Positions 6,680 to 27,697 of a DNA stretch of 54,573 bases are shown here, one piece after another; position 1 is the first letter of the stretch; every line of letters starts with the position of its first letter. A program made the position numbers and the translations under genes. The notes beneath the pieces are model-generated. The model was not told the DNA's origin, ran no database searches, and worked only from the letters and a program-made list of their open reading frames with translations. Origin of the DNA: a virus. The stretch is from the IMG/VR virus record IMGVR_UViG_3300033141_001018, positions 1-54,573 of that record. One strand, written 5' to 3'.

Positions 6680-6856
6680 ATGAGTAAAAAAACAATTTGC
6701 AATAAACAAACTTTTAAAACAATCAGGCATGCAAAAAGTGTTTTTGAGGATATGCGTGACAAGGGTAAAAATGTGAATTGGATATATTATTGTCCTAAAT
6801 GTCAGGGGTATCATATTACATCATGGACAAAACAACAAATAAAGCAAAGATTTTAA
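6680..6856 (+). CDS. Small zinc-binding phage protein
   Basis: 58 residues from the ATG at 6680; a GTG at 6668 overlapping the previous stop is the alternative start. It contains YYCPKCQGYHIT, a C-x2-C...H pattern widespread in small phage proteins, preceded by a helix (TFKTIRHAKSVFEDMRDKG). Probably a small nucleic-acid-binding protein; the function is unknown. Confidence 0.75.
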   Translation: MSKKTICNKQTFKTIRHAKSVFEDMRDKGKNVNWIYYCPKCQGYHITSWTKQQIKQRF

Positions 6857-8644: not shown

Positions 8645-9007
8645 ATGGAAATAGTTGAAATAAGCAAACGGATAACCGAAAAGATCGAACTGCTTGAAAA
8701 GGGGCGTAAATTAATCTTAGAACGTGCGCACCGCAAAGCCAATGCAGTTGCTAATTATGAAAAGGCACTTGCCATCACTATCGCAAAGCTAAAGGCAAAT
8801 GCTATTGATGATATTCATGGCACAAAAATAGACAACCTTCCAGCTACGTTGATTGAAAAAGTTGCAAAAGGTTTAATATATTCCGAAAAATTAGAAATAG
8901 AAATTGCGGAATCAGAATATAAAGCTGCGATAGTGGGAATGAGTGCGATACAAGCCGAACTGAACGGCTACCAAAGTATAAACAGATTTTTAGAACATGA
9001 AAGCTAA
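8645..9007 (+). CDS. Hypothetical coiled-coil protein
   Basis: 120 residues, nearly all helical: ITEKIELLEKGRKLILERAHRKANAVANYEKALAITIAKLK and LEIEIAESEYKAAIVGMSAIQAELN. The pattern resembles small coiled-coil accessory proteins found near recombination genes in other phages. It overlaps the Lar-like gene by 11 bases. Confidence 0.7.
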   Translation: MEIVEISKRITEKIELLEKGRKLILERAHRKANAVANYEKALAITIAKLKANAIDDIHGTKIDNLPATLIEKVAKGLIYSEKLEIEIAESEYKAAIVGMSAIQAELNGYQSINRFLEHES

Positions 9008-9302
9008 AGAAATGAAAGATGAAAACGGTTTACTGCCTTGTCCGTTTTGCGGTGGCAAAGCAAAAGTAATATCAGGGACAGACCACGTAACAACTTATTG
9101 GTATGTATTATGTCTTCATTGTACAACTTCTCAAACTTCATCAAAAGATTACGATAAAGTAATAAAAAAATGGAACACCCGCCACTCATTGAGTGATGAT
9201 GAAATAAGGGAGGGTGCAAAGAAAATAAGTAAGAATTTTGCCATACAAGAAGTTTGGATAAACGGCGCGATCTGGTATAAAAACAAAATAAACAATGCTT
9301 GA
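8997..9302 (+). CDS. Lar-like restriction alleviation / zinc-ribbon protein
   Basis: 101 residues. LLPCPFCGGKAKV followed about 30 residues later by CLHCTT and then KWNTRH is the pattern of the Lar family (Rac prophage), small zinc-ribbon proteins linked to relief of type I restriction. An extra C-terminal stretch of about 40 residues is not part of the core. Many phage members have no tested function, so the name is a family label. Confidence 0.75.
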   Translation: MKAKEMKDENGLLPCPFCGGKAKVISGTDHVTTYWYVLCLHCTTSQTSSKDYDKVIKKWNTRHSLSDDEIREGAKKISKNFAIQEVWINGAIWYKNKINNA

Positions 9303-9699
9303 AGCTAAAACCATACAAAAGTACAAAGGCAGGTCAGTTGCTTGGTTACTGAAGAAATGTCAATTTTACTTCAATCAGTACATCAGAAAACGGGACGAGG
9401 GTAAGCAATGTATATCCTGCGATTCATATAATACGGCCCATGCTTCGCACTTTTATAATGTCGGTCATTATCCCACTTTACGATTCAATGAGGATAACTG
9501 CCATGCAGGCTGTATGCGGTGTAATACCTATCTGCGGGGAAACCTATTAGAATACCGTGAGCGGCTCATAGTGCGTATCGGAATAGATAAATTTAACAAT
9601 TTAGAGATCGCAAAGGGCTGGGATAAAAAGACTAATCACAAATGGAGCCGCCTCGAATTGATCGAATTACTTGAAAAATATAAAGCTAAATGCAAATGA
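9295..9699 (+). CDS. NinG-like recombination nuclease
   Basis: 134 residues. It has CISCDSYN, then ASHFYNVGHYPTLRFNEDNCHAGCMRCNTYLRGN and YRERL, matching phage NinG (Rap), which resolves branched recombination intermediates and is an HNH-like zinc enzyme. The upstream linker of full NinG is short here. It fits with the ERF annealase and SSB at the other end of the window. Confidence 0.85.
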   Translation: MLEAKTIQKYKGRSVAWLLKKCQFYFNQYIRKRDEGKQCISCDSYNTAHASHFYNVGHYPTLRFNEDNCHAGCMRCNTYLRGNLLEYRERLIVRIGIDKFNNLEIAKGWDKKTNHKWSRLELIELLEKYKAKCK

Positions 9700-9782
9700 A
9701 CACCGAACAAAAATACACAGTCAAATGGTTTACCGTCCTTGCAATCGTATGGATAGGATTTTTATTGATTTTGCTAACTTAA
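9696..9782 (+). CDS. Very small membrane peptide
   Basis: 28 codons, MNTEQKYTVKWFTVLAI..., with one clear hydrophobic segment to the C-terminus. The ATG overlaps the NinG-like stop (ATGA). Its reality rests on position and the hydrophobic pattern only. Confidence 0.4.
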   Translation: MNTEQKYTVKWFTVLAIVWIGFLLILLT

Positions 9783-9787
9783 AAATT

Positions 9788-10177
9788 ATGAGAGTAATAT
9801 TTGTCGGATTACACAATAAACCACACATGGCTGCTTTGGATAGTGGCACAAAGACAGGTAAATTAGTTAATAGGATAATAAATAAATTACCTAATGATAT
9901 TGAGATAATCAGAAGTAATATATTAGATACAGATGAATTGGTTTGTTTTAATGAAACGTATAAATATGCAAATGAGTGGTACTGGACACATCTGCCAACG
10001 ATTGATGATATAATAATATTAATGGGTGCAATGACTCAATTAATTTACAAAAATGACGTGCGTCATATTGGAAATATTATAAGAATTGCGCATCCCGCAA
10101 GTAAGAGAAGTCATAAAGATATGGATGAATTTGTAATTAATACGGCTAAAAAAATAAATAAAATATTAGTAAAATGA
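9788..10177 (+). CDS. Uracil-DNA glycosylase superfamily-like protein
   Basis: 129 residues from the ATG at 9788; an open frame extends upstream but that part covers the membrane peptide. The features FVGLHNKP at the start, SGTKTGKLVNRI, a hydrophobic strand DIIILMGAMTQL and a late IAHPASKRSH resemble the UDG fold, in which an N-terminal Gly-x-x-Pro region binds the base and a late 'HPS' loop enters DNA. The catalytic acid is not obvious, so activity is uncertain. It could repair DNA or act on a modified base. Confidence 0.5.
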   Translation: MRVIFVGLHNKPHMAALDSGTKTGKLVNRIINKLPNDIEIIRSNILDTDELVCFNETYKYANEWYWTHLPTIDDIIILMGAMTQLIYKNDVRHIGNIIRIAHPASKRSHKDMDEFVINTAKKINKILVK

Positions 10178-10725
10178 CTACCATTTTAAGTAACCAATGC
10201 CGAAATCAACTAATATTGATTTTAATATTTTCGATGATATTTACCCTGCTTTCCTGTAAAAAAGACAACGAAGGCTTCACGATTTACACAATTAAAGCCG
10301 GAAACATTCACCCAAACAGGATGCCCTGCGTATTTGTTAATGATCATTCTATCAGTTATTATTTCAAAGTGAACGACACTTATTTAATGGATTTTACTGG
10401 AAATTGGAGTAAGCTGCCCGGAATTAGCGAAGGACACCACCATAAAAACTCGTGCAGATTAGGTTATTTATGCAAAGATGGCCTGAAAATATTTGGAATG
10501 TATGTTTATTGCGATTCTGAGCCGATAAGATTCAGGATTGACACGCTGGAAAATGGAACGTATTTATGCGACATAAGGCATTCAGGCGGGTTTTGGTATC
10601 TTACCCTTAATGGCAAAACTCATACGTGTAAGGCAGGTAAAAAGACAGATATAGGGTATAGATTGTACCCCTGTTTAAAAAGCGGTATTAGCCATGATTT
10701 TATTTGTCCAATTAAATGGAACTAA
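10174..10725 (+). CDS. Phage lipoprotein
   Basis: 183 residues. A long hydrophobic N-terminus (LILILIFSMIFTLLSCKKD) ends in a lipobox LLSC with the lipid cysteine near residue 28. The mature part is beta-rich with several cysteines. It overlaps the UDG-like gene by 4 bases. Like the 1133 gene it would be anchored in the envelope; a role in blocking other phages is possible. Confidence 0.8.
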   Translation: MTTILSNQCRNQLILILIFSMIFTLLSCKKDNEGFTIYTIKAGNIHPNRMPCVFVNDHSISYYFKVNDTYLMDFTGNWSKLPGISEGHHHKNSCRLGYLCKDGLKIFGMYVYCDSEPIRFRIDTLENGTYLCDIRHSGGFWYLTLNGKTHTCKAGKKTDIGYRLYPCLKSGISHDFICPIKWN

Positions 10726-10736
10726 AAACTAAAGAT

Positions 10737-11273
10737 ATGAAAACAATAGCCGAAAAATACCTTACTGATAACAACATTGAAACAGTTTTAGTAGATACGG
10801 GAGGTAAAACTTCTTCTATTCAGGTACATCAAAACGGAAAACAAACAAGTATGGAGCAAGTGCTGGCAGGCTTCGCCAACTTCCTCACACCCATAACGGA
10901 TGAAAACTTTGAAAAGGAAGTCGAAAAACAGGCATTATTAAAATACCCAGACAAGGAAAGAAATTATGATGCAATAACACCACGAAGGATCGCATTTTAT
11001 CAAGGTGCTAAATGGGCGTTATCCCACACCCCACCTCCAACACATGAGAGGGTGAATTGGCAGTCATTAAGGGATAAATACTTCAATGAATGTATTGCCA
11101 GCAGAACTGTAAAAAGTGAAGAGGGTATTCCATACGACCACCAGCAATGGATAAGCTATGCCCCGCACGATTTATTTAAATGGTTTAAGAAACAGATAGC
11201 CACCGAACTAACTACTGATAACATTAGCGAATTGGATAAATGGAAAACGAAAGGAGATAGTGATGAAAGATAA
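10737..11273 (+). CDS. Hypothetical protein
   Basis: 178 residues from the ATG at 10737, which follows a typical A-rich leader; the in-frame ATG at 10716 would overlap the lipoprotein gene. The middle contains ITDENFEKEVEKQALLKYPDKERNYDAITPRRIAFYQGAKWAL, a pattern common in small Bacteroidota phage proteins. It is soluble; the function is unknown. Confidence 0.75.
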   Translation: MKTIAEKYLTDNNIETVLVDTGGKTSSIQVHQNGKQTSMEQVLAGFANFLTPITDENFEKEVEKQALLKYPDKERNYDAITPRRIAFYQGAKWALSHTPPPTHERVNWQSLRDKYFNECIASRTVKSEEGIPYDHQQWISYAPHDLFKWFKKQIATELTTDNISELDKWKTKGDSDER

Positions 11274-11568
11274 ATTAGTAAAAAGCCTTAAACGACAATT
11301 ACAATATCACCATGAAATGAGTGAAGATGAATTGGACGAGAAAATGGGTATCCCTATTTTTATAAAACCAAGTGAAATAGAGTTTATTTTAAACAAGCTA
11401 TCCCACCCATCAGATAACGCAGAATTAATCAAAGCCGCAAAATACCTCCTGAGCCTCCACGCCTGCGAACAGGAAGGAATTGCAAGCGGACAGCCAACGC
11501 AATTGCAGTGGCTTTTAGCTGTGAATAAATTAGAACAAGCATTAAGAGATTTAGAGAAAAAACTATAA
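11263..11568 (+). CDS. Hypothetical protein with Shine-Dalgarno start
   Basis: 101 residues from the ATG at 11263. AGGAG at 11252-11256 stands 6 bases upstream, unusual in this genome. It is acidic and helical (DELDEKMGIPIFIKPSEIEFILNKL; ELIKAAKYLLSLHACEQE). It overlaps the previous gene by 11 bases. The family is not recognised. Confidence 0.7.
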   Translation: MKDKLVKSLKRQLQYHHEMSEDELDEKMGIPIFIKPSEIEFILNKLSHPSDNAELIKAAKYLLSLHACEQEGIASGQPTQLQWLLAVNKLEQALRDLEKKL

Positions 11569-11578
11569 AATTATTAAA

Positions 11579-11773
11579 ATGGCACATTACTGTGATAAAT
11601 GTGGAACACAAACTTTATTAATGTCTGGTTATGCTTATTTAGAAGCTGATGCGGAATCATATGAAAACGGAAAAGAGGAAAAGCCAAGAACAAATATTAG
11701 TACCATAGAGAAACATATAATTGTTCATTTTTGCGAGAATTGCGATGAAATAATAAGAACTTTTAACGAATAA
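11579..11773 (+). CDS. Small zinc-ribbon protein
   Basis: 64 residues with two CxxC pairs, YCDKCGTQ near residue 4 and FCENCDEI near residue 53, separated by a polar acidic loop. This is a typical one-zinc ribbon that may bind nucleic acid or protein. The function is not known. Confidence 0.75.
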   Translation: MAHYCDKCGTQTLLMSGYAYLEADAESYENGKEEKPRTNISTIEKHIIVHFCENCDEIIRTFNE

Positions 11774-11805
11774 TATATAAATTTAATAACGAAAGGAGAA
11801 ACAAA

Positions 11806-12015
11806 ATGAAAAACAAAAATTATCCAAATCACGCATTTAAAAGTAAAAAATTATGGCTCAGGGATGTTAGAAAACGATGGGCTGCTATTAGAAAATTTAT
11901 TCAACATAATAACGAATCAATCAGAATGGGTTTGCTTTATTTGTTGTTAATCTTAGGTGTTTTTATAATACTCTTTCATTTTGTCAGCAATTTCATCAAA
12001 TTGCTGACAAAATGA
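11806..12015 (+). CDS. Small membrane protein whose 3' end lies in a giant inverted repeat
   Basis: 69 residues: a basic soluble N-terminal half (SKKLWLRDVRKRWAAIRKF) and a transmembrane segment MGLLYLLLILGVFIILFHFV. AGGAG at 11794-11798 gives a good ribosome site. The membrane segment is encoded by the left arm of the 68-bp inverted repeat and the stop falls in the right arm. The natural C-terminus may therefore have been changed by the inversion or by an assembly fault. Confidence 0.65.
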   Translation: MKNKNYPNHAFKSKKLWLRDVRKRWAAIRKFIQHNNESIRMGLLYLLLILGVFIILFHFVSNFIKLLTK

Positions 12016-12065
12016 AAGAGTATTATAAAAACACCTAAGATTAACAACAAATAAAGCAAACCCAT
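11926..12065. repeat. Giant near-perfect palindrome: 68-bp inverted repeat with 4-base loop
   Basis: Left arm 11926-11993 and right arm 11998-12065 are exact reverse complements over 68 bases, with CATC between them. The first mismatch is at 11925 against 12066. No ordinary terminator is this long. RNA from here would form a 68-bp duplex, and the DNA could form a cruciform. It might be a replication fold-back, an inversion product or an amplification/assembly artefact. Confidence 0.95.
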
Positions 12066-12162
12066 GACATACCTAATCATAGCAGCCGTAATCGCTTTTA
12101 TCAGTTACACATTTTTAATTATATGGATAGTGAGAAACTATCGTAATGCAACAAGAAAATGA
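12064..12162 (+). CDS. Very small membrane peptide
   Basis: 32 codons beginning at the outer edge of the palindrome: MTYLIIAAVIAFISY..., one membrane segment and a basic tail (RNYRNATRK). It is overlapped by the next small gene (ATGA). Low weight because of size, but the pattern fits membrane peptides in this region. Confidence 0.45.
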   Translation: MTYLIIAAVIAFISYTFLIIWIVRNYRNATRK

Positions 12163-12284
12163 AGATAATATCTAAAATATTAGATGTACTTTTGGATGTG
12201 TTTACGATACCTGCCGGAATATTAATGGGCGGATATGCGGCATTTATTTTAACTAATTATATTTGGAATTTACTTTATCCCTAA
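12159..12284 (+). CDS. Very small membrane peptide
   Basis: 41 codons, MKIISKILDVLLDVFTIPAG..., with a hydrophobic stretch in the second half (GILMGGYAAFILTNYIW). The start overlaps the preceding stop. Function unknown. Confidence 0.5.
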   Translation: MKIISKILDVLLDVFTIPAGILMGGYAAFILTNYIWNLLYP

Positions 12285-12331
12285 AAGTGCTAACTGGTAC
12301 AAAATTTCCCACTAAATAGTTATAAAAACCC

Positions 12332-12362
12332 TTGCATTTCCCACAAAAAATTTGTATCTTGC
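12332..12362 (+). promoter_or_regulatory. Bacteroidota-type promoter
   Basis: TTG at 12332-12334, 20 bases, then TATCTTGC at 12355-12362 (one change from TAnnTTTG). It is followed after about 60 bases by a terminator, so it should make a very short transcript. Confidence 0.65.
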
Positions 12363-12366
12363 AATA

Positions 12367-12449
12367 GTTTAGATAATTTTAGAAAAATGGGATATTTGTA
12401 TGGGTGGTAAAAACCAAGAAAGTCCAACTGGTAGAGTTGGCTCTTTTTA
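12367..12449 (+). ncRNA. Candidate short non-coding RNA or leader-peptide RNA
   Basis: About 80 bases between the promoter at 12332-12362 and the terminator at 12421-12448. The only open frame is 7 codons (ATG at 12387, MGYLYGW). It could be a free small RNA, or a leader with a short peptide and an attenuator controlling 12701 onwards. No family is recognised. Confidence 0.45.
12421..12448 (+). terminator. Intrinsic terminator
   Basis: CCAACT (12424-12429) pairs with AGTTGG (12435-12440) around a 5-base loop, extended by AG/CT with a bulged T, followed by TTTTT. A short but convincing terminator. Confidence 0.65.
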
Positions 12450-12700
12450 ATAGGCTGGTATTCAGCTTCTTCCAAGAAAAAAAATTTAATATGGCATTTC
12501 GGTACTCGGATGCCTGAATTTTATTTAGACTACGTATAAACTGCGTTTGAGTTAATCATTCTAAATAAGGAATGCAACTCACTGTGGTTTAGTCTATTGT
12601 ATCGTTCTTTGAAATATAAGTAATTGATTTACAGGGTTTTAATATCGGGCGTTCGTGACATATCTTTGCAGGACACAATTATTAATTAAACCTGGAACCC
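12450..12700 (+). other. Structured non-coding stretch
   Basis: Part of the 416-base gap between genes (12285-12700). It contains a hairpin GGCAT...ATGCC (12493-12514) and nested stems: TAGACTA (12526-12532) with TAGTCTA (12590-12596), GAGTT (12549-12553) with AACTC (12576-12580), and CATTC (12557-12561) with GAATG (12570-12574). A -7 box, TATCTTTG, lies at 12661-12668. The nested pairing suggests a folded RNA or protein-binding DNA; no gene is present. Confidence 0.5.
12661..12668 (+). promoter_or_regulatory. Bacteroidota-type -7 promoter element
   Basis: TATCTTTG is a perfect TAnnTTTG box 32 bases before the ATG at 12701. The -33 region at the 20-base distance reads TTT rather than TTG, so it is weaker or needs an activator. 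Confidence 0.6.
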
Positions 12701-12955
12701 ATGGAAACATTTACATTTTTTAAGGAAAACAAGATATCGGGAAAATATACCTTAACTATTGATGAATTGAAAGAAAAATTCATTACATGGATGAAGACAA
12801 AAGAAAAAAATTGGATTGAATATTACATATCAACCATAACAGTCTTTTTCATTACCGATAAAGATGGGCTGAACTCATCTATAGAAAATGGAGATTATAA
12901 ACAAATATCTAATTTATTAGATGATGTTAAATTTGAATATTTAGACAATTTATAA
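12701..12955 (+). CDS. Hypothetical acidic protein
   Basis: 84 residues, soluble, with a mix of strands and helices (TFFKENKISGKYTLTIDELKEKFITWMKTKEKNWIEYYISTITVFF). Acidic end. It is first in the transcript from the 12661 box. The family is not recognised. Confidence 0.7.
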   Translation: METFTFFKENKISGKYTLTIDELKEKFITWMKTKEKNWIEYYISTITVFFITDKDGLNSSIENGDYKQISNLLDDVKFEYLDNL

Positions 12956-12971
12956 ATTAAAACCTAAAACC

Positions 12972-13097
12972 ATGAACGAAACACTAATCACTTTCACAGT
13001 AAATCATGCGATCATCACTGCCTTGATTTTAACCTTTGCCACTGCCTTAATTTATGAGGGCGTGAGCAGAATAAAAAAGGGGAGGTCAAATGTTTAA
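12972..13097 (+). CDS. Small single-pass membrane protein
   Basis: 41 codons, MNETLITFTVNHAIITALIL..., one transmembrane segment and a basic tail (SRIKKGRSNV). Preceded by the recurring A-rich leader AAAACCTAAAACC. It overlaps the next start by 8 bases. Function unknown. Confidence 0.55.
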   Translation: MNETLITFTVNHAIITALILTFATALIYEGVSRIKKGRSNV

Positions 13098-13395
13098 CTG
13101 GAAAAAGGAAATTACCCCAGAAATAATAGAAGAGGAAGAAAAGGAAATTACTATTCATTTAAATCCTGAGCAATTCAAAGATTATGTGATAGAATATGAA
13201 ACAGGCAAATTAAAATCAGATGAAGTGCTGATCTTGTTTTGTTACATAATCCAAAAAGGCAAATGGGGGCGCTTTTCATATCCCTGGTTAATCGAATTAA
13301 TGGATCACAGGGTATTAACCCAAACAGGATATGTGAACCCTTACGAGCTAAAAATATACAGGGATACAAAAATTAAAACCAAAATTAAATTTTAA
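13090..13395 (+). CDS. Hypothetical acidic protein
   Basis: 101 residues. Very acidic N-terminus (EITPEIIEEEEKEITIHL), then a mixed domain with KWGRFSYPWLIELMDHRVLTQTGYV. GGAGG at 13081-13085 lies just upstream of the ATG. It is probably cytoplasmic; the family is not recognised. Confidence 0.7.
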   Translation: MFNWKKEITPEIIEEEEKEITIHLNPEQFKDYVIEYETGKLKSDEVLILFCYIIQKGKWGRFSYPWLIELMDHRVLTQTGYVNPYELKIYRDTKIKTKIKF

Positions 13396-13413
13396 CTAAA
13401 AACCTAAGAAACC

Positions 13414-13557
13414 ATGAAAAAAAGAATTTACAAAAAAGAAACATTAAATCCAGCGATGCACGTAATGAGGTGTCCGAAATGTGGGAATATTTGTGCGTCT
13501 ACGAGTGAACGTGAATTACTTCCAGAATGGACGATATGTGATTACTGTGTAAATTAG
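13414..13557 (+). CDS. Small zinc-ribbon protein
   Basis: 47 codons with two cysteine pairs, RCPKCGNIC and ICDYC, and a basic N-terminus (MKKRIYKKE). A one-zinc ribbon. It is the last gene before the intrinsic terminator at 13593. Confidence 0.6.
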   Translation: MKKRIYKKETLNPAMHVMRCPKCGNICASTSERELLPEWTICDYCVN

Positions 13558-13592
13558 CTATAATTAACACATCCCTTGCACTTTCTGCATAC

Positions 13593-13623
13593 AAGCCTTG
13601 TATTAACTTACAGGGCTTTTTTA
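13593..13623 (+). terminator. Rho-independent terminator
   Basis: AAGCCTTGT (13593-13601) pairs with ACAGGGCTT (13610-13618), nine pairs with one G-U, and is followed by a T-run. It ends the 12.7-13.6 kb transcript. Confidence 0.75.
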
Positions 13624-13815
13624 TTAATTTAATAGTGCTTTAGCGCTTTAGTATCACCAATTCCTTCCTGATACACTTATTAAGCCTTCTAAGATACCCT
13701 ACATTTATTCTATAATACCATACCAAAAAGATATTTAAAGCTCTCCAGCAGGCTAAGAACAGCTACAAACTACATTGTACTCTATTTCCTTAGCTTTACA
13801 GCTACAATGGAATGT

Positions 13816-13868
13816 TTAATTACTACACTGAGGTAGTATATTAGTTAATTACTATATGGAGGTGGTAT
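13816..13868. repeat. Two tandem imperfect repeats, each able to form a hairpin
   Basis: Copies at 13816-13839 and 13845-13868, offset 29 bases, read TTAATTACTA..GGAGGTGGTAT and a close variant. The first contains TACTAC...GTAGTA, the second TACTAT...GTGGTA, so the pairing is kept with G-U changes. This is compatible with conserved RNA hairpins or operator sites. Confidence 0.65.
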
Positions 13869-14172
13869 TTAAATTATAGATATAAACTTCTAAGATAAAC
13901 CAGCTCCCAGATCAAGAGGATTCAACATCTGCCATGCTGTCATAATTCGTACCTATGCAATATATTCTATATATAAAGCATTGATAATCAGTAAAACCGA
14001 TGTCCTATAATTATCATTATGATTAATAGGGGTACACCCCCAGCAGAGAAGCGGTGAGAGTGGTTTGGGTATCCCCCCCACATTTTTTCACCCTGTTAAT
14101 TTTTTTTACCCTCTCCTGTAATTTTTTTTGCCACTCTGAGAGCTGATTAGTGATACTAAGGCGCTTTAAGAT

Positions 14173-14185
14173 GTGGAATTTCCAC
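14173..14185. promoter_or_regulatory. 13-bp perfect palindrome, operator candidate
   Basis: GTGGAA-T-TTCCAC lies about 40 bases upstream of the 14227-14257 promoter, a place suited to an activator or repressor dimer. Confidence 0.45.
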
Positions 14186-14226
14186 CGCGTTTTGTCAACG
14201 TTTGCAGAAAATAGTTGCGTTTTTTC

Positions 14227-14257
14227 TTGCTTTGTAGATTTTATTGTTGTATGTTTG
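14227..14257 (+). promoter_or_regulatory. Bacteroidota-type promoter
   Basis: TTG at 14227-14229, exactly 20 bases, then TATGTTTG at 14250-14257. It lies 24 bases before the ATG at 14281 and is the likely start of the 14.3-16.7 kb gene set. TTTGCAGAAA occurs twice here (14201 region and 14254). Confidence 0.75.
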
Positions 14258-14280
14258 CAGAAACTTAAAATTTTAATATC

Positions 14281-14430
14281 ATGGAACAAAAAATAATAGT
14301 ATTAATAGTAACAACCATACCATTACTGATAATAATTGTTCTATCTGTAATGGCACTTCGATGTCTTAATAAATCCGAAAAGGCATTTAGGGAGATATTT
14401 CAAAAAGGTTTAAATAATAGAAAGGAATAA
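14281..14430 (+). CDS. Small single-pass membrane protein
   Basis: 49 codons: MEQKIIVLIVTTIPLLIIIV... forms one long membrane segment, followed by a basic soluble tail (NKSEKAFREIFQKGLNNRKE). First gene behind a strong promoter. Function unknown. Confidence 0.65.
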   Translation: MEQKIIVLIVTTIPLLIIIVLSVMALRCLNKSEKAFREIFQKGLNNRKE

Positions 14431-14443
14431 TTAAAATGATAGT

Positions 14444-14462
14444 ATCTGATTTTAAATCAGAT
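14444..14462. promoter_or_regulatory. 19-bp perfect palindrome in leader
   Basis: ATCTGATTT-T-AAATCAGAT. As RNA it makes a 9-pair stem with hardly any loop, so as DNA it is a better dimer-binding site. It lies 44 bases before the 14506 gene. Confidence 0.5.
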
Positions 14463-14505
14463 TTGGTTTCTTACCACATAAGAATTAAGGCATGAATTTG
14501 TAATT

Positions 14506-14772
14506 ATGAAAATATATGTATTAGTAGAAGTAACGTATGATTATTTTAGGTTTCAGAAAAACCTATGGGCGTCAACAGACCAGTTGGCGGTTGAGCGCTA
14601 CGCACATTCTCTTATTTATGATATTCATAATAAACGTGTGGGGAAGAAAGCGCCAATGTGGAAATTAGAATATTATGACCGTTCTTTGATAGGCGGTAAA
14701 ACCGATTTTAATCATAAGCACGGAGTTTCACATTTATGGATTGATGTTTTTGAAGGCGATAGAACAATTTAA
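14506..14772 (+). CDS. Hypothetical protein
   Basis: 88 residues, soluble: MKIYVLVEVTYDYFRFQKNLWASTDQLAVERYAHSL... It looks like an alpha/beta fold with an N-terminal strand and a helix that resembles small phage proteins reading a signal or sensing metabolites. The family is not recognised. Confidence 0.7.
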   Translation: MKIYVLVEVTYDYFRFQKNLWASTDQLAVERYAHSLIYDIHNKRVGKKAPMWKLEYYDRSLIGGKTDFNHKHGVSHLWIDVFEGDRTI

Positions 14773-14784
14773 AAACTTTAAGAC

Positions 14785-14997
14785 ATGCAAAGAATAGATT
14801 ATCCAGAAGACTGTCTGCGCATACAAATCGTATGCTTAAAGCATAATTATTATTTAACTATCCCGGAGTGCGAGGAAATTTGGGAAGAATATTCTGACAG
14901 CATAGCTGCAAGTTGGCTGTTTTTACCGAAAGAAGATGATATGTTATGGACAATGATAAAAGAATATGTAATTAAGCGGGCGTATGAAATTGATTAA
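14785..14997 (+). CDS. Hypothetical acidic protein
   Basis: 70 residues, helical, acidic in the middle (IPECEEIWEEYSDSIAASWLFLPKEDDM). The EEIWEEYSD...A.WL pattern is common in small phage proteins of unknown function. Confidence 0.7.
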   Translation: MQRIDYPEDCLRIQIVCLKHNYYLTIPECEEIWEEYSDSIAASWLFLPKEDDMLWTMIKEYVIKRAYEID

Positions 14998-15013
14998 CTA
15001 AAACTTTACAACT

Positions 15014-15172
15014 ATGAAAACAAAAAACGAATCTGCAACTGGTCGTTGGATTGATTGCAACAAAGTAAGAAAAAAACTGCTTGAAATGTTTAAAGATATC
15101 GAATCAAAGGAAGACTTTGAGCGCAGAAAAGCATTATCACCCAAATATAAATCTTTAAAACCCCAAAACTAA
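15014..15172 (+). CDS. Small basic protein
   Basis: 52 codons: MKTKNESATGRWIDCNKVRKKLLEMFKDIESKEDFERRK..., helical and basic. The leader is A-rich. The stop TAA is one base from the next ATG. The family is not recognised. Confidence 0.55.
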   Translation: MKTKNESATGRWIDCNKVRKKLLEMFKDIESKEDFERRKALSPKYKSLKPQN

Positions 15173-15173
15173 A

Positions 15174-15344
15174 ATGACAGTATCAAAACTAAGTGGAGAA
15201 ATTAAAAGGCTTATTTTTAAATTTAACGAATTACAGGATTGTGCTATAACAGAAGTTGTAGTAACATCTGAGATTATTAATAAATCCATAGCCGGAGGTG
15301 GTATTCCTGTTTACAGTGTAAAGATTGAGATAGATGAAAAATAG
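15174..15344 (+). CDS. Small hypothetical protein
   Basis: 56 codons, with a helix (LSGEIKRLIFKFNELQD) and two strands (ITEVVVTSEII, GIPVYSVKIEIDEK). The end overlaps the next gene by 11 bases. Confidence 0.55.
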   Translation: MTVSKLSGEIKRLIFKFNELQDCAITEVVVTSEIINKSIAGGGIPVYSVKIEIDEK

Positions 15345-15501
15345 CATTTACATAGTCGACGGCATCGGCTACCGCAATATCAGTGGCTTAATGAGGCGCT
15401 ACGGCTGGGGCAAGGGTGTTTATTCCTACATAGAGCGAAATGCTGTTGATGGGTGCTTTGAGTATAAAGGTGTTGTTGTAAAAAAAATAGAGGTAATATG
15501 A
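15334..15501 (+). CDS. Small hypothetical protein
   Basis: 55 codons: MKNSIYIVDGIGYRNISGLMRRYGWGKGVYSYIERNA... It looks like a compact basic DNA-binding-like fold with a helix-turn near YRNISGLMRRYGW. Function unknown. Confidence 0.55.
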   Translation: MKNSIYIVDGIGYRNISGLMRRYGWGKGVYSYIERNAVDGCFEYKGVVVKKIEVI

Positions 15502-15538
15502 TTGGAAATATAAAATACAAACTTAAAACCTTAAAGTA

Positions 15539-15844
15539 ATGACAAAAGATAAAAATGAAATACCAGAATTTATCAGAGAACTCACAGACAATATATTTAA
15601 GTATAATGATGCCAACGAGGATGATTCTGTATATGCTGTAAAAGTTTTCTTTAAGACAAGAACATATACTTGGTTTGATGGGGAGGGTGTTGTAAATGAA
15701 GATGGTTTATATGTCGTTACAAGGAGTAAAGTTATAGATAAAACACATGAGGAAAAACTATTATCTTTAATTAAAAAGGCACAAACCCCAAAGGGAAATA
15801 TTATTATTGATTGGCTTAAAGAATTACGGGAAGAGGAAGGGTAA
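15539..15844 (+). CDS. Hypothetical protein
   Basis: 101 residues, soluble, mixed alpha/beta (SVYAVKVFFKTRTYTWFDGEGVV), acidic at both ends. The family is not recognised. Confidence 0.7.
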   Translation: MTKDKNEIPEFIRELTDNIFKYNDANEDDSVYAVKVFFKTRTYTWFDGEGVVNEDGLYVVTRSKVIDKTHEEKLLSLIKKAQTPKGNIIIDWLKELREEEG

Positions 15845-15868
15845 AAGTATAATTGCCATTAATAATTT

Positions 15869-16054
15869 ATGATATTAACAATAACATACAAGGATTTCAC
15901 CTTTAATGTTCACGGTAAGCAGACCGATGACGGTTTTGAGATTGACAAATTATTTTACAAAGGCGTTGATTTCACGGAAGTAATTTTGGCAGTTATTGAC
16001 GAAAAGGAAATAGAGTTATTGTGTCTTGAAAAGATAAATAAAAAGGAGGGATGA
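15869..16054 (+). CDS. Small hypothetical protein
   Basis: 61 residues: MILTITYKDFTFNVHGKQTDDGFEIDKLFYKGVDFTEVILAVIDEKEIELLCLEKI. A beta-rich start and an acidic helix. The family resembles small Bacteroidota phage proteins with an 'F.....Y....D.TE.i' pattern; no function is known to me. Confidence 0.65.
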   Translation: MILTITYKDFTFNVHGKQTDDGFEIDKLFYKGVDFTEVILAVIDEKEIELLCLEKINKKEG

Positions 16055-16055
16055 A

Positions 16056-16310
16056 ATGGAATTTGTTAAAATATTAGAAAAATTAGGAATAGAGAAATAT
16101 GCCAAACGAATACTTAACAGTAATTCTCATGGTGAATTATTCCACATACAACAATATTATGTATTAGCAGACACGTTGCCACAAGGCCATCTCGATTGGT
16201 TCCCTGAATGGTTTGATGAGGTTGTGAAATATGCAGAAGAAAATTGGGAAAGACCTGAATCTGTTTTCCAACATATTGATAAAATATTACTTGATAATTT
16301 AAAAAGATAA
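16056..16310 (+). CDS. Hypothetical protein with strong Shine-Dalgarno
   Basis: 84 residues. AGGAGG at 16044-16049 stands 6 bases from the ATG. The sequence is helical (EFVKILEKLGIEKYAKRILN; LADTLPQGHLDWFPEWFDEVVKYAEENW). The strong ribosome site contrasts with most genes here. Function unknown. Confidence 0.7.
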   Translation: MEFVKILEKLGIEKYAKRILNSNSHGELFHIQQYYVLADTLPQGHLDWFPEWFDEVVKYAEENWERPESVFQHIDKILLDNLKR

Positions 16311-16323
16311 ATAAATAAAGAAA

Positions 16324-16581
16324 ATGAAAAAAGTAAAAAAAGATTATTTCGTTTACGATATGGATACACCCCACCACTTTGTTATTTTAGATACAACGCG
16401 GGAGGATATACATGATAGGGTTACGGCATACAGGATATATAGGAGAAGGAGGAACAGGATTGTTTTCTTTGAATTTAAGAATGCTTGGTCTATGAATTTA
16501 TCACAAGAAGAAAGGGATCGTTTTAAACATAAACAGATAATTATTAAAAACCCAAAACCAGACCCAAATACTGAGCCATGA
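16324..16581 (+). CDS. Hypothetical basic protein
   Basis: 85 residues, basic and tyrosine-rich: KKVKKDYFVYDMDTPHHFVILDTTREDIHDRVTAYRIYRRRRNRIVFFEF. Could bind nucleic acid. It overlaps the next gene by 4 bases. Confidence 0.7.
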   Translation: MKKVKKDYFVYDMDTPHHFVILDTTREDIHDRVTAYRIYRRRRNRIVFFEFKNAWSMNLSQEERDRFKHKQIIIKNPKPDPNTEP

Positions 16582-16739
16582 AAACCATAATAGGAATTTT
16601 GCTTATTTTGTCCCCACTTGTTGCTATATTTGTTATTGCGACTATGTTACGTGGTATTTTACTCGCCTTGCTGGTATTTGGGATAACAGCATTTGTTATT
16701 GGGATAATAACATTAGGTCTATACTTGATTATGAAATAA
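16578..16739 (+). CDS. Small two-segment membrane protein
   Basis: 53 codons with two membrane segments, MKTIIGILLILSPLVAIFVI and LLALLVFGITAFVIGIITLG, separated by a short polar turn. It sits directly before the terminase gene. Its size suits a holin, but nothing else supports that. Confidence 0.6.
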   Translation: MKTIIGILLILSPLVAIFVIATMLRGILLALLVFGITAFVIGIITLGLYLIMK

Positions 16740-21861: not shown

Positions 21862-22015
21862 GTATGAAATTTTTAAATTTGATGAGGGGAATAAGTATGG
21901 CAGTGACCATAACGATTGGATTCGGTTTTTAAATAAACATGGAAAAGACGGATGGGAATGTATTGAAACAGTTGATTCGCCACCATACGCAATATTTAAG
22001 AGGGAGCTTATATAA
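21848..22015 (+). CDS. DUF4177-like small protein
   Basis: 55 codons: FLNKHGKDGWECIETVDSPPYAIFKREL matches the small DUF4177-type pattern ('LN..G..GWE.v.......iFKR'). The biological role of the family is unknown. It overlaps the glycosyltransferase start by one base. Confidence 0.6.
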   Translation: MKKFEYEIFKFDEGNKYGSDHNDWIRFLNKHGKDGWECIETVDSPPYAIFKRELI

Positions 22016-22653
22016 TGCCTAAATTCTCAGTCATAATGCCCTCATTCTTGGGCGAGTACAAACGAGCAGCAAGCAACCGTGACGAAAAGATTGTCAGGGC
22101 TGTTAATTCTGTTTTAACCCAAAAGGATTTTGAGTTGATAATTGTAGCTGATGGCTGTGATAAAACCATAGAGATAATCAGGAACAACTTTTACGGGAAT
22201 AAGAACATTAATCTTTTTAAGATTAAATATAAAAAGGTGCGAGGCTCAAAGCGTAACGCTGGCTCTTCAGGTAGGGCGAGAAACGCAGGGCTTCAGAAGG
22301 CAAAAGGCGAATATGCTATTTATTTGGACGTTGATGATTTGTACCTTGATGGTTATTTGGAATCATTACAAATAGAGATGACCGACTGTGATTGGTATTG
22401 GTTCGATGATATGAGTTGGAATAAAAAGACAGAGCAGTTTGACCGCCATGTTTGTTCGATACATACGCAGGGTCAATGCGGAACATCAAATATTTGTCAT
22501 AAGGTAGATATGAATGCGTGGTGGTGTGAGAAAACAACATATTTACATGATTGGAATTTTATAAATACGTTGAAGGTAATAAGTGATAATTATAAACGCC
22601 TGAACACGGCAGGATTTGGCGTGTGCCATGTTCCGGGATTATTAGACTATTGA
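22015..22653 (+). CDS. Glycosyltransferase family 2-like protein
   Basis: 212 residues, GT-A fold. KFSVIMPSF at the start, RAVNSVLTQKDFELIIVADG (nucleotide-sugar binding), GRARNAGLQKAKGEYAIYLDVDDL with the metal-binding DxD (DVDD), and a later DWNFINTL segment are typical of inverting family-2 enzymes that transfer a sugar from a nucleotide donor. It has no membrane segment. First enzyme of the 22.0-28.6 kb cassette. Confidence 0.88.
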   Translation: MPKFSVIMPSFLGEYKRAASNRDEKIVRAVNSVLTQKDFELIIVADGCDKTIEIIRNNFYGNKNINLFKIKYKKVRGSKRNAGSSGRARNAGLQKAKGEYAIYLDVDDLYLDGYLESLQIEMTDCDWYWFDDMSWNKKTEQFDRHVCSIHTQGQCGTSNICHKVDMNAWWCEKTTYLHDWNFINTLKVISDNYKRLNTAGFGVCHVPGLLDY

Positions 22654-22931
22654 TGGCACTTAAAGACATAGCATACGACATACGAAAGCTAACTCTTGGG
22701 CGAAATTTTACGTTCAAGGAGTTTATGCACTTTGTAGGTCAGGGAAAAAAAGATGCTGCTTCATTGTTGAATCTTTTGGTTATGGACTGCCACGTAGAGC
22801 ATATAGGCGGTGACAAATACAAGATTGCTCACGGTGATGCACGAAAGAATCTGATTGAATCCAGGATTGAATTATGCAAGGTAAAGATAGACGGTTGGCA
22901 TGAACTTTATAAACACTTAAAAACGTTATGA
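22653..22931 (+). CDS. Hypothetical winged-helix-like protein
   Basis: 92 residues from the ATG at 22653 (an upstream in-frame start would overlap the glycosyltransferase by 30 bases). TLGRNFTFKEFMHFVGQGKKDAASLLNLLVMDCHVEHIGGDKYKI has the outline of a winged-helix domain. It may be a small regulator inside the cassette; this is only inferred. Confidence 0.6.
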   Translation: MALKDIAYDIRKLTLGRNFTFKEFMHFVGQGKKDAASLLNLLVMDCHVEHIGGDKYKIAHGDARKNLIESRIELCKVKIDGWHELYKHLKTL

Positions 22932-23233
22932 AAAACAGGGAAAAGATAATTGTGCTAAAGCAGGAAATTGCTCAAAAGAAAGATGCAATAGACGAAGAAT
23001 ATATGGTGCAATTAGGTAAATTATTTCATGCGTTTACCACACAAGAGCTTTTGGATTTGGGGTGGAAGAAAGCATGGACAAATCCGGCATACGCAGGAGA
23101 ACAGATGTTTGAAAAGGGTTCACGATCTGTGAGATTTAAAGAAGGGGTGTTGTTTCTGACTTATGGTGGATGCCCCACTCGTTCTATTTGTGATGTTGAT
23201 GATTTGGAATATTACGAAAAAACAGGTAAATGA
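22928..23233 (+). CDS. Hypothetical protein
   Basis: 101 residues: a charged N-terminal helix (MKNREKIIVLKQEIAQKKDAIDEEY) and an alpha/beta rest. It overlaps both neighbours by 4 bases, so it is coupled to the cassette. The family is not recognised. Confidence 0.65.
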   Translation: MKNREKIIVLKQEIAQKKDAIDEEYMVQLGKLFHAFTTQELLDLGWKKAWTNPAYAGEQMFEKGSRSVRFKEGVLFLTYGGCPTRSICDVDDLEYYEKTGK

Positions 23234-23943
23234 AAAAGTGTCTTTATACAATACATTTTGGTGACCACGATAAGCCGCATGAGCCGTTCAAAAGTGAAGG
23301 GTGGGACTATTTGATGTTTACCAACAGAACTGACATTAAAAGTAATGTTTGGGATATTAGGGTGGTCACAACTCCGTTGCCGGATTATTTAGCGGCACGA
23401 TACGTTTACATTAACTCGCATTTATTTGTTCCCAAAGAATACGATTATTCGCTTATGATTGGCGGGCAGATTCACGTTGACGGTGACTTGAATAAATTAG
23501 ATATCGACTACGGAAAAGATTTCAATATGATGAAGCACCCTTGTAGGACTTGTATTTACGAGGAGGCAAAAATAATAGAAAAAGAGGGCATTGACAATTC
23601 GTTAAATTTTATCCCGCAGATGGCGAGGTATCGTGCAGAGGGTTTCCCTGAAAATTACGGACTAAATGCTTGTGGGATTATTGGCAGGCATAATAATGTA
23701 ACTATGGAAGATTTTGAGCGTGAATGGTGGCATCAAGTGATGACCGGTAGCTACCGTGACCAACTCAGTTTTGATTACGTTAGGTGGAAGCTGGACAATA
23801 TAAGGGTTGAGATTTCTTTGGGTCGAACAATAAAAGCACCCGCGGAAAGTTTAACGGTTCATAATTTCGCAACGCCATATTGGGATTTATTACAAGGTGA
23901 TATATTTTCTGTTTATAAACATGGAACAAACGACAAAGCATGA
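23230..23943 (+). CDS. DUF616-like glycosyltransferase-family protein
   Basis: 237 residues. YTIHFGDHDKPHEP and DYLMFTNRTDI at the start, then KHPCRTCIYEEAKI, then MTGSYRDQLSFDYVRWKL, are features of the DUF616 (TOD1/MUCI70-like) group, regarded as glycosyltransferases of the GT-A fold. It probably transfers or trims a sugar. The enzyme's donor cannot be read from sequence. Confidence 0.7.
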   Translation: MKKCLYTIHFGDHDKPHEPFKSEGWDYLMFTNRTDIKSNVWDIRVVTTPLPDYLAARYVYINSHLFVPKEYDYSLMIGGQIHVDGDLNKLDIDYGKDFNMMKHPCRTCIYEEAKIIEKEGIDNSLNFIPQMARYRAEGFPENYGLNACGIIGRHNNVTMEDFEREWWHQVMTGSYRDQLSFDYVRWKLDNIRVEISLGRTIKAPAESLTVHNFATPYWDLLQGDIFSVYKHGTNDKA

Positions 23944-24665
23944 AAACAATACTCGTATATCCAGACAGGGCGTTTTATCATAAACTTGATGCCATATTAA
24001 ATGTTCTTGGCATTAAGCAGACGAATGATATAAATGACGAGTATGATTATGTGATATATTTCGATTTTAAAAATAGTTATGGGAATGTGGTGGATTTTAA
24101 GTCAGATATACCAGTAATAAACAACACAATTTGTTCTACCGACAAAAAATCAATAGACAAGGCGTTTGAGATTGTTTTTAAATATTCTTCTATTGTCAAA
24201 AGTGGGCGGTGTGTGAAAAAGTCAATTCATCATGCCAATAAGGAATTATCTGGAATATTAGATAAGCCAGACAATGAGGAGGGTTTTATTTACCAAAGGG
24301 TTCTTGGTGGTACGCCAACAAAAGAATACAGGTGTACGATTATTGGTGGTGAGATTGTGATTTGCTGGGAACGCACAGTACCAAGATTACTACATTTCCC
24401 TAAAGGCATAGTTGGTTATTATGATGGTTGCGAGGTGGTAAGTCCGTTTACGTCATTAGAAAGCCAAGATATACTTACATTTTGTGGATTATTTGGGATT
24501 GACTTTGCTGATATTGACATTATGCGTGATGACGATGGGAAATTATATATTATTGATGTAAACGAAACTGCTTCATATAATATATTATATGGCAGACCAA
24601 AAGATGAATTATTATTAATTGCTGAAAAATTTAAGGAGATGCTAAAATGTATGTACAAAAATTAA
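23940..24665 (+). CDS. ATP-grasp ligase-like protein
   Basis: 241 residues. EGFIYQRVLGGTPTKEYRCTIIGGEI gives the central ATP-grasp strand pair; FADIDIMRDDDGKLYIIDVNETASY gives the late acidic metal-binding motif (D...IDVNETAS), as in RimK/D-Ala ligase-like enzymes that join a carboxylate to an amine or thiol with ATP. The substrate-binding N-terminal part is short. It overlaps the PanD-like gene by 19 bases, so the two products may act together. Confidence 0.78.
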   Translation: MKTILVYPDRAFYHKLDAILNVLGIKQTNDINDEYDYVIYFDFKNSYGNVVDFKSDIPVINNTICSTDKKSIDKAFEIVFKYSSIVKSGRCVKKSIHHANKELSGILDKPDNEEGFIYQRVLGGTPTKEYRCTIIGGEIVICWERTVPRLLHFPKGIVGYYDGCEVVSPFTSLESQDILTFCGLFGIDFADIDIMRDDDGKLYIIDVNETASYNILYGRPKDELLLIAEKFKEMLKCMYKN

Positions 24666-24955
24666 TTGCTAAATTAACAACAACTGTAACAGGTGCGAAC
24701 CTTGATTATGACGGCAGTATTACGTTAGGACGAGATTTGATGGCATTAGTTGACTTTAAAGAGTACGATATGGTTCACGTTAATTGTATAGATACGGGAA
24801 ATCATTGGGAAACGTATGTTATTTCGGGTGAGGGCGGAGAGGTTTGCCTGAACGGTGCTGCTGCCAATCATTTCAAAATTGGTGACCGGGTACATATATT
24901 ATTGTATGGCATGACTGATAAAGAAAAAGTATATCCAAAAATAGTGGTATTATGA
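24647..24955 (+). CDS. panD: Aspartate 1-decarboxylase (PanD)-like protein
   Basis: 102 residues; host PanD is about 126. PanD makes beta-alanine from aspartate with a pyruvoyl group formed by self-cleavage before a serine. The cleavage site GS is present at residues 23-24 within YDGSIT, the catalytic lysine in AKL at residue 9, the TY pair near residue 57 and NGAAA near residue 70. However, the arginine that binds substrate (Arg54 in E. coli, in GKRFSTY) is replaced by histidine (GNHWETY). Either activity has changed or substrate differs. The PanD family call is strong; actual aspartate decarboxylation is uncertain. Confidence 0.88.
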   Translation: MYVQKLIAKLTTTVTGANLDYDGSITLGRDLMALVDFKEYDMVHVNCIDTGNHWETYVISGEGGEVCLNGAAANHFKIGDRVHILLYGMTDKEKVYPKIVVL

Positions 24956-25131
24956 AAGCAAGTGATCAATATGGTAAATTCAAAAAAGAGGTTAATAGTA
25001 TATTGCCAACAATTACAGATAATGAATGTTGGGATATGTTTATAACCCTTGGCGGGGCATTGATGTTAAACACGAAAGAAATGTCAGATTCTATTAAGAA
25101 TGTTTTGAATTATAAATTTAAAAAGCTATGA
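24952..25131 (+). CDS. Small hypothetical protein
   Basis: 59 codons: MKASDQYGKFKKEVNSILPTITDNECWDMFITLGGALMLN... It is helical, with a partly hydrophobic middle. It overlaps PanD-like and epimerase genes by 4 bases each, so it is coupled to them. Function unknown. Confidence 0.55.
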   Translation: MKASDQYGKFKKEVNSILPTITDNECWDMFITLGGALMLNTKEMSDSIKNVLNYKFKKL

Positions 25132-26042
25132 AAGCATTGGTAACAGGTGGTGCAGGGTTCATTGGTTCACACCTATGCGAAGCACTTTTAGAAAGAGGTG
25201 ATAAGGTTATCTGTTATGATAATCTTTCGACAGGGAAGACGATAAATATTTCACACCTGAGAAAAAATAAAAAGTTTAAGTTCGTTCATGGTGACGTAAG
25301 GGATCGTAAGGTATTAGATTTCTCCATGAAAGGCGTTGACGTTGTTTTTAACCAGATGGCAGCCAAAAAGACCGTCTGTGAGAGAAGTCCTGTTGAAGAC
25401 TGTGAAATCAATGCAGGAGGCACATTGAACGTCTTACTGTCTATGGTTGACAATGGGGTGAATAAGATTGTACACGCTTCTACCGGGTCTGTATATGGAG
25501 AGGTTGGTGGGATGATAACGGAATTTACACCGCTTAATCCTGTCAGTTATTATGGGGTAAGCAAGATGGCAGGGGAAAAGTACGTGGCTGCCTTTGGCGA
25601 CTTACATGGAATTGAGTACACAATATTGAGGTACTTCCATGTTTATGGTGAAAAACAAGACAACTCCGATCACGGTGGCGTAATACCTATATTCTTACGC
25701 AAAGTTGTTAGCGGGGAGCCTATACTTATTCATGGTGACGGTGAGCAGGTACGTTCATTTACTTATGTCGGTGATGTTGTTCATGCCAACATTGTTGCTT
25801 GCGAAAAGATGGATAACAGGATTTACAACTGTGCTTCAGGGATAAAGGTAAGCATAAATGAGCTTGCAAAGATGGTTCACGAAAGGACTTACGACAGCGG
25901 ACTTGTCTACGGTGACGAGATGTTTGGTGATGTCAGGAACTTTAACATAGACAACTCATTAATAAAAGAAGATTTCTCAATGGAATTTACTAACTTTGCG
26001 GATGGATTAGATAAAACAGTAGAATGGTATGCGGCGTTATGA
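25128..26042 (+). CDS. NAD-dependent nucleotide-sugar epimerase/dehydratase (extended SDR)
   Basis: 304 residues. GGAGFIGSH binds NAD at residues 7-15; the catalytic YYGVSK (about 142-147, YxxxK) and a preceding STGSVYGE serine region complete the active site. GalE-like length and pattern; the substrate is probably a UDP- or dTDP-sugar. Supplies sugars to the glycosyltransferases of the same cassette. Confidence 0.88.
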   Translation: MKALVTGGAGFIGSHLCEALLERGDKVICYDNLSTGKTINISHLRKNKKFKFVHGDVRDRKVLDFSMKGVDVVFNQMAAKKTVCERSPVEDCEINAGGTLNVLLSMVDNGVNKIVHASTGSVYGEVGGMITEFTPLNPVSYYGVSKMAGEKYVAAFGDLHGIEYTILRYFHVYGEKQDNSDHGGVIPIFLRKVVSGEPILIHGDGEQVRSFTYVGDVVHANIVACEKMDNRIYNCASGIKVSINELAKMVHERTYDSGLVYGDEMFGDVRNFNIDNSLIKEDFSMEFTNFADGLDKTVEWYAAL

Positions 26043-26622
26043 AGTAATAAATAAGCTAATACAAAGATATGGCTACAAGCAATATCTGGAGTTGGGGACG
26101 CAGAATAATGTGTGCTTACAAAACGTAGTATGCGAGTTTAAGGTTGGTGTTGACCCTGACCCGACAGAACATAAAGATGAAAACTCCAATGAGTTCTATG
26201 AAATGACGTCGGATGAGTTCTTTGCTCAAAATACAGATATTTTTGAAATTGTTTTTGTTGACGGCTTACATGAAAAGAATCAGGTCGTAAAGGATATTTC
26301 AAATGCCATGTGTTGCATATCACCCGATGGTGCTATCGTGGTTCACGACTGTAATCCACAGGAAGAAAAAAACCAGGAATACCCTATGCCTCATGTCGGA
26401 GATTGGAATGGCACTGTTTGGAGGGCGTGGCTGAAATTCCGCACAGTAAAAGGCTTGAAAATGTTTGTTGTGGACACAGATCAGGGCTGTGGTGTGATAA
26501 TGGACGGTACACAGACACCTCTTGATGATGACAATATTTCATTTGATGAGTTTGTTAAAAACAGGAAAGCATATTTAAACTTGATTTCAATAGACGAGTT
26601 CAATGAAAGTTTATCAGTGTAA
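26029..26622 (+). CDS. SAM-dependent methyltransferase (class I)
   Basis: 197 residues. QYLELGTQNN (motif I), GVDPDPTEH, FEIVFVDGLHEKNQVVKDISNAMCCISPDGAIVVHDCNP is typical of sugar or natural-product O-methyltransferases with the Methyltransf_24-type 'FvDG.H' core. It overlaps the epimerase by 14 bases. It probably methylates a sugar or its linker in this cassette. Confidence 0.85.
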   Translation: MRRYEVINKLIQRYGYKQYLELGTQNNVCLQNVVCEFKVGVDPDPTEHKDENSNEFYEMTSDEFFAQNTDIFEIVFVDGLHEKNQVVKDISNAMCCISPDGAIVVHDCNPQEEKNQEYPMPHVGDWNGTVWRAWLKFRTVKGLKMFVVDTDQGCGVIMDGTQTPLDDDNISFDEFVKNRKAYLNLISIDEFNESLSV

Positions 26623-26731
26623 GACCTGTAAAGACGAAAATGGTAATCTGTTAAAGTTTACATCTCCGGGATGTTCATGTAATGCACGGTGTCCTCGCTG
26701 TAACAGGAAAAATATAAGCAGAGTAAAATAA
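26603..26731 (+). CDS. Tiny zinc-binding peptide
   Basis: 42 codons: YQCKTCKDENG, then GCSCNARCPRCNRKN. Seven cysteines in a short protein make zinc binding very likely. Overlaps the methyltransferase by 20 bases. Confidence 0.55.
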   Translation: MKVYQCKTCKDENGNLLKFTSPGCSCNARCPRCNRKNISRVK

Positions 26732-26766
26732 GTATTTAATTACACAGCAAAACGAAAGGATAATAA

Positions 26767-26964
26767 ATGAAAAAAGAACGGATAAAAGAAAATGTGATTA
26801 AATTCATGAAAGATAAGGACTGTGAGTTTTGTTATTCAGATAAGAATAATCCGTTTCCCGTTTATGATGGCAGGCTTATGGACTTCTTAATAGAGTACCA
26901 CATTTCACAGATAGAGGAGCCTACTGGTGACGAGCAGATAAAGAATTTGGATAATAAATTATAA
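26767..26964 (+). CDS. Small hypothetical protein
   Basis: 65 residues, charged helical: MKKERIKENVIKFMKDKDCEFCYSDKNNPFPVYDGR... AAGGA at 26756-26760 is a possible ribosome site. Ends 2 bases before the glycosyltransferase. Function unknown. Confidence 0.6.
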   Translation: MKKERIKENVIKFMKDKDCEFCYSDKNNPFPVYDGRLMDFLIEYHISQIEEPTGDEQIKNLDNKL

Positions 26965-26966
26965 GT

Positions 26967-27521
26967 ATGAAATTATCAATTTTAATTTGTACAGTACCGT
27001 CAAGGGCAAAAACATTTCTACCGAAGTTGCTTGATAAATTACTTCCGCAGGCGACAAAAGACGTAGAGGTTCTTTGGCTTGGCGATAATAAACAACGCAG
27101 TGTCGGGCAGAAGCGGAACGACTTGCTAAATTTAGCACAAGGGGAATATGTTACCTTTGTAGACGACGATGATGAAATTACTGACGACTACGTAGTGTTA
27201 ATCTTAAAAGGAATAGCGACAGGGAAGGATGCGGTGAACTTCAAGGTGGCTTGTAGTGTAAATGGTAGTCCGTACAAAGATGTGTTTTATGACGCAAGAT
27301 TTACGAAAGACAGGGATTTTAAAGACAGATACGAAAGACGGGTCAATCATATTATGTGCGTGAAAAGAGAGTTGGCGGTAAAAACGGGCTTCCCGAAGAT
27401 TAACTTTTCAGAAGATGCCGACTATGCTAAACGGCTTAGACCATTAATAGGTAGCCAAGCATTTATAAATAAGGTGCTTTATTATTATAATTTTAGTAAT
27501 TCAATATCGGAAACACAATGA
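26967..27521 (+). CDS. Glycosyltransferase family 2-like protein
   Basis: 184 residues. KLSILICTVPSR at the start, VGQKRNDLLNLAQGEYVTFVDDDDEI with the metal-binding DDD motif, then a shorter acceptor half. Short for the family, so acceptor side may be minimal. Second of three family-2 genes in the cassette. Confidence 0.85.
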   Translation: MKLSILICTVPSRAKTFLPKLLDKLLPQATKDVEVLWLGDNKQRSVGQKRNDLLNLAQGEYVTFVDDDDEITDDYVVLILKGIATGKDAVNFKVACSVNGSPYKDVFYDARFTKDRDFKDRYERRVNHIMCVKRELAVKTGFPKINFSEDADYAKRLRPLIGSQAFINKVLYYYNFSNSISETQ

Positions 27522-27697
27522 GTAAAATATTATTAAATCGTAATGAAAGGGAATTAGAGGATGCGTTTATTGCTGGATTTAATGCTGGCAAAAATCCCAC
27601 CGTTGGTGTTTTTGGGAAATATGACAGAGCATTATTCTTACAGTACCTTGATGGATATTATTATGAAGGTTCATTTAAAAAACGTAAACGCAAATGA
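27518..27697 (+). CDS. Small hypothetical protein
   Basis: 59 codons: MSKILLNRNERELEDAFIAGFNAGKN..., with a basic tail (KKRKRK). Overlaps both glycosyltransferase genes by 4 bases. Function unknown. Confidence 0.55.
   Translation: MSKILLNRNERELEDAFIAGFNAGKNPTVGVFGKYDRALFLQYLDGYYYEGSFKKRKRK

Follow-up and report, generated by a model that had tools for sequence, protein, structure and literature searches.

How did a perfect palindrome of 140 bases come to lie among a run of very small genes in a viral genome? The palindrome, to which a sequence-only reading had drawn attention, lies in the 54,573-nucleotide contig IMGVR_UViG_3300033141_001018, which was analysed over its whole length (hereafter the window). 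It comprises arm 1 (11926-11993, plus strand), a 4-base loop, CATC (11994-11997), and arm 2 (11998-12065, plus strand), which is the exact reverse complement of arm 1; the 68-bp perfect arms and 4-base loop described in that reading were thus confirmed, with 68 of 68 positions complementary (100%). The tip of the structure is the short inverted repeat GCAATTT CATC AAATTGC. Among hairpins with a loop of up to 30 bases, it is the only one in the 54.6-kb window with an arm of at least 14. A chance origin is excluded, since the longest arms in ten order-3 Markov simulations of the window were 10-12 and the longest stem in a comparison set of 62 other loci (687,186 bases, mostly phage contigs and including the sister genome described below) was 21. 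This longest comparison hairpin, a perfect 21-bp stem with a 3-base loop (L024, 2191-2235), is probably a terminator. At 6831-6848, just 5' of a further small ORF for a hydrophobic protein, an 18-base piece of the arm recurs exactly. Among random 68-base segments, about 1 in 400 matches over as great a length, and we do not claim that a donor was copied from there.

The window has identical ends of 114 bases (1-114 and 54460-54573), and by this overlap its sequence is that of a circular contig. It encodes predicted DnaD-like helicase loader, DnaB-like helicase, Erf-like annealing and NinG/Rap-like nuclease proteins, together with methyltransferases, a terminase and a tape-measure protein, and this gene content identifies the source by sequence as a tailed phage. 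The best full-length matches of the terminase were to Flavobacterium phages, at approximately 30% identity. A terminase search also recovered a much closer relative, IMGVR_UViG_3300033150_000500 (55,447 bases; the sister), whose terminase protein is 99% identical to that of the window, and a search with the portal protein returned the same sister plus one relative at 31%; searches of the latter for the small proteins of the locus found none. The sister also has ends overlapping by 114 bases (L010 1-114 and L012 15334-15447; the genome is covered by L004 and L010-L012), and both contigs behave as circular maps as judged from their ends. Because the overlap is exactly 114 bases in both phages and lies at a different place in each genome, it looks like a property of the assembler rather than a true terminal repeat.

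The palindrome spans the junction of two small ORFs on the plus strand. ORF_A (11806-12015, 69 aa) has a basic N-terminus followed by one hydrophobic segment; arm 1 lies in frame within it and encodes MGLLYLLLILGVFIILFHFVSNF, and its stop codon falls inside arm 2, after five codons of that arm. ORF_B (12064-12162) is a small membrane ORF encoding the hydrophobic protein MTYLIIAAVIAFISYTFLIIWIVRNYRNATRK, and arm 2 shares the AT of its start codon. The description of the palindrome as lying inside a membrane-peptide gene therefore holds as far as the 18th nucleotide of arm 2, taking in arm 1 and the loop; beyond this point, arm 2 consists of spacer and the AT of the ORF_B start codon. Relatives of ORF_A were found neither in IMG/VR nor in GTDB genomes, and the small proteins of the region gave only weak matches to Pfam (none reaching a curated cut-off) and to PHROGs (none better than E = 0.03). 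In addition, the protein encoded at 10716-11273 had no match in IMG/VR, and a DNA similarity search of 9000-15000 against a phage collection returned no match. As to which arm is the original, arm 1 is mildly favored because the ORF_A frame continues through it. Codon statistics gave -1.8 for arm 1 in the ORF_A frame and -8.8 for the best frame of arm 2, a weak measure here as the neighboring ORF_B and ORF_C also score below zero, and a look at the leader motif before start codons gave CC before ATG at 4.5% versus 2.5%, on too few cases to favor either arm.

The locus was compared with that of the sister. A run of 282 nt, made up of the upstream flank (11528-11805) and 11806-11809, is identical in the two phages, as are 88 nt downstream from 12064, yet a 258-nt block (11806-12063) is absent from the sister. 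The block, which begins with an ATGA (11806-11809) that recurs at 12064-12067, contains the whole of ORF_A and the palindrome up to two bases short of the end of arm 2. The examination of relatives for the second arm that had been proposed for this locus thus gave a two-sided answer: the sister lacks arm 2 except for its last two bases, but it also lacks arm 1 and all of ORF_A, and no ancestor with a single arm was found among the relatives searched. In the window the leader AAAGGAG belongs to ORF_A; in the sister it directly precedes ORF_B. Outside the locus, the two genomes differ by many insertions and deletions across 7.7-16.6 kb, and the early small-gene region as a whole (9000-16600) has the appearance of an insertion/deletion mosaic between the sister phages. 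Since aligned stretches are typically 84-99% identical and the 370 bases right around the gap are fully identical, the alignment suggests that the presence/absence difference at this locus is recent. Given a sister that is identical over 282 and 88 nt on either side and nevertheless lacks the 258-nt block, the feature looks young and, as far as the two sequences indicate, dispensable.

We consider it probable, at roughly two chances in three, that the palindrome is the scar of a recent there-and-back intrastrand template switch during phage DNA synthesis. According to this model, the short inverted repeat around CATC, the presumed turn-round point, would have let the nascent strand fold back, and the folded strand would have copied its own last bases, up to 68 of them, producing a perfect second arm. 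Its return to the normal template would have come at the ORF_B start codon, with a shared sequence of at least AT; measured against the sister, the microhomology at the return point is AT only. Three points weigh against the model: this microhomology is short, no single-armed ancestor was found, and a 68-bp copy is longer than the largest pattern cited below. The geometry of the palindrome, its perfection, its 4-nt loop and its absence from a sister with identical flanks are direct observations; we infer the polymerase mechanism and its direction, the identity of the original arm and the lack of a selected function. A fold-back replication product, one of several origins listed in the sequence-only reading, is the best supported of them because the arms are perfect, the feature looks young and the sister lacks it within identical flanks. 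The Erf-like annealing protein and the NinG/Rap-like junction nuclease are compatible with annealing-rich replication but are not specific to it.

The proposed event is a new example of a known mutational kind. Template switching yields perfect stems in one event, and 4-nt loops are enriched among the hairpins compatible with this origin (PMC8794818). The present structure resembles those hairpins in its one-step perfect stem, its 4-nt loop and its status as a young insertion with no counterpart in a close relative, but it differs in size, the copied length of 68 bp exceeding the largest pattern described there (59 bp), and in context, since those hairpins lie in rRNA or microRNA genes whereas this one lies in a phage operon for which no pre-event sequence was found. 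Intramolecular template switching at inverted repeats has also been described in E. coli (PMC7202029). Those quasipalindrome mutations are likewise bacterial and likewise depend on a strand that folds back at an inverted repeat and copies itself, although the reporters correct an existing near-palindrome whereas here a long arm was apparently made from a short seed. The coding palindromes of Nematomorpha mitochondria (PMC6649704) are similar in that long perfect inverted repeats occur in protein-coding DNA; however, in that case the repeats are numerous and both arms encode conserved protein, whereas here there is a single repeat, arm 2 reaches a stop after five codons and the gene is not conserved.

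The main competing explanation is that the palindrome was made in the laboratory, as a fold-back or template-switch chimera arising during amplification or end repair and then built into the contig. Fold-back and palindromic chimeras sharing the local geometry seen here have been described from short-read libraries and from whole-genome amplification (PMC10908179, PMC6218980), and both the absence of the feature from the sister and the lack of a match for a 21-mer from the arm in any other IMG/VR contig fit such an origin. Nevertheless, a simple chimera of this kind is expected to carry on as the reverse complement of the 5' flank, whereas the sequence here continues into the correct downstream gene. 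An artefact thus needs two false junctions, one where the strand turns at the loop and one where arm 2 gives way to the right gene. Moreover, ORF_A is likewise missing from the sister, and a real insertion or deletion would still be required to account for it. Since amplification can make such molecules, we regard an artefact as unlikely but as a contender of some weight. The origin of the 258-nt block bears on another proposal, in which the sister is ancestral and the block was inserted in a single step: from ATGA the fork would have switched to a foreign template and, after copying ORF_A and folding back, would have resumed at the ORF_B ATG. The exact flanking of the block by ATGA, its content of both ORF_A and the palindrome, the lack of a nucleotide match for ORF_A in the sister and the weakness of its protein matches agree with this scenario. 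No donor was found, however, and the block is explained equally well if an ancestral ORF_A, lying between two ATGA start-codon repeats, was deleted in the sister. The difference may thus have arisen either by that deletion or by gain in the window, and insertion and fold-back in a single step strike us as quite improbable.

Explanations that give the palindrome a function fare less well against the sister. A selected cis element (an RNase III switch, an insulator, a dsRNA source or a cruciform) would be in keeping with the position of the palindrome at an operon junction, where it covers the leader of ORF_B, and with its very stable predicted RNA fold (-104.5 kcal/mol versus a shuffle mean of -24.6). 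However, the extreme fold is an automatic result of inverted duplication, and as any 68-bp inverted duplication folds this well, its stability is not independent evidence of function. The sister lacks the element and has no substitute for it, with no hairpin with an arm of at least 14 anywhere in its genome; there was no match in Rfam, and no second example was found in IMG/VR. The earlier suggestions of a regulated double-stranded RNA source or a functional cruciform are unsupported for the same reasons, the absence of the whole element from the sister and the failure to find a second example, and we judge a selected hairpin of any of these kinds to be very unlikely. In a specific form of this idea, which appears more doubtful still, the phage would stably maintain the perfect 68-bp hairpin across the gene junction because it is of use, for example as dsRNA that host RNase III cuts so that ORF_A and ORF_B are uncoupled, while repeated template switching would preserve the identity of the arms. 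Long near-perfect palindromes also serve as substrates of telomere resolvases (PMC12270096), which raises the idea of an N15-type hairpin telomere or resolution site, or of a palindrome-based replication or packaging signal. No ResT/TelK-type catalytic domain was found in the window (a search for PF16684 gave nothing at E <= 1). In addition, the overlapping ends make the contig circular, and the site is missing from the sister, itself circular and closely related. As the sister has no comparable hairpin elsewhere, the palindrome was also rejected as a shared origin, packaging site, telomere or terminator. Since an apparently complete, closely related phage does without the site, a role as origin, packaging site or telomere is unlikely, and of the readings considered here we give the telomere or signal only the slightest chance.

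If the palindrome is the product of a real template switch, it is an unusually long and fresh scar of this kind in a phage, whose age is bracketed by the sister genome, and one copying accident would have both rewritten the end of a gene and buried the leader of the next. ORF_A would have gained a new C-terminus read partly from arm 2, and ORF_B would be left without the leader it has in the sister, starting instead at the foot of a 68-bp RNA duplex. Because of this loss of the sister-type leader and the position of the start at the duplex foot, translation of ORF_B would probably be reduced. In E. coli, SbcCD cleaves long perfect palindromes, as reported for one of 460 bp (PMC4245961); a 140-bp palindrome may be tolerated for a time and is expected to be short-lived, which is consistent with its perfect arms. 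If the feature is instead an artefact, it serves as a warning about perfect palindromes in phage contigs from metagenomes. Finally, at some distance from the locus, the region between the portal and the capsid-side genes (22015-28395) contains ORFs that by eye resemble glycosyltransferases and a sugar-nucleotide epimerase, and much of this block is 94-99% identical in the sister.
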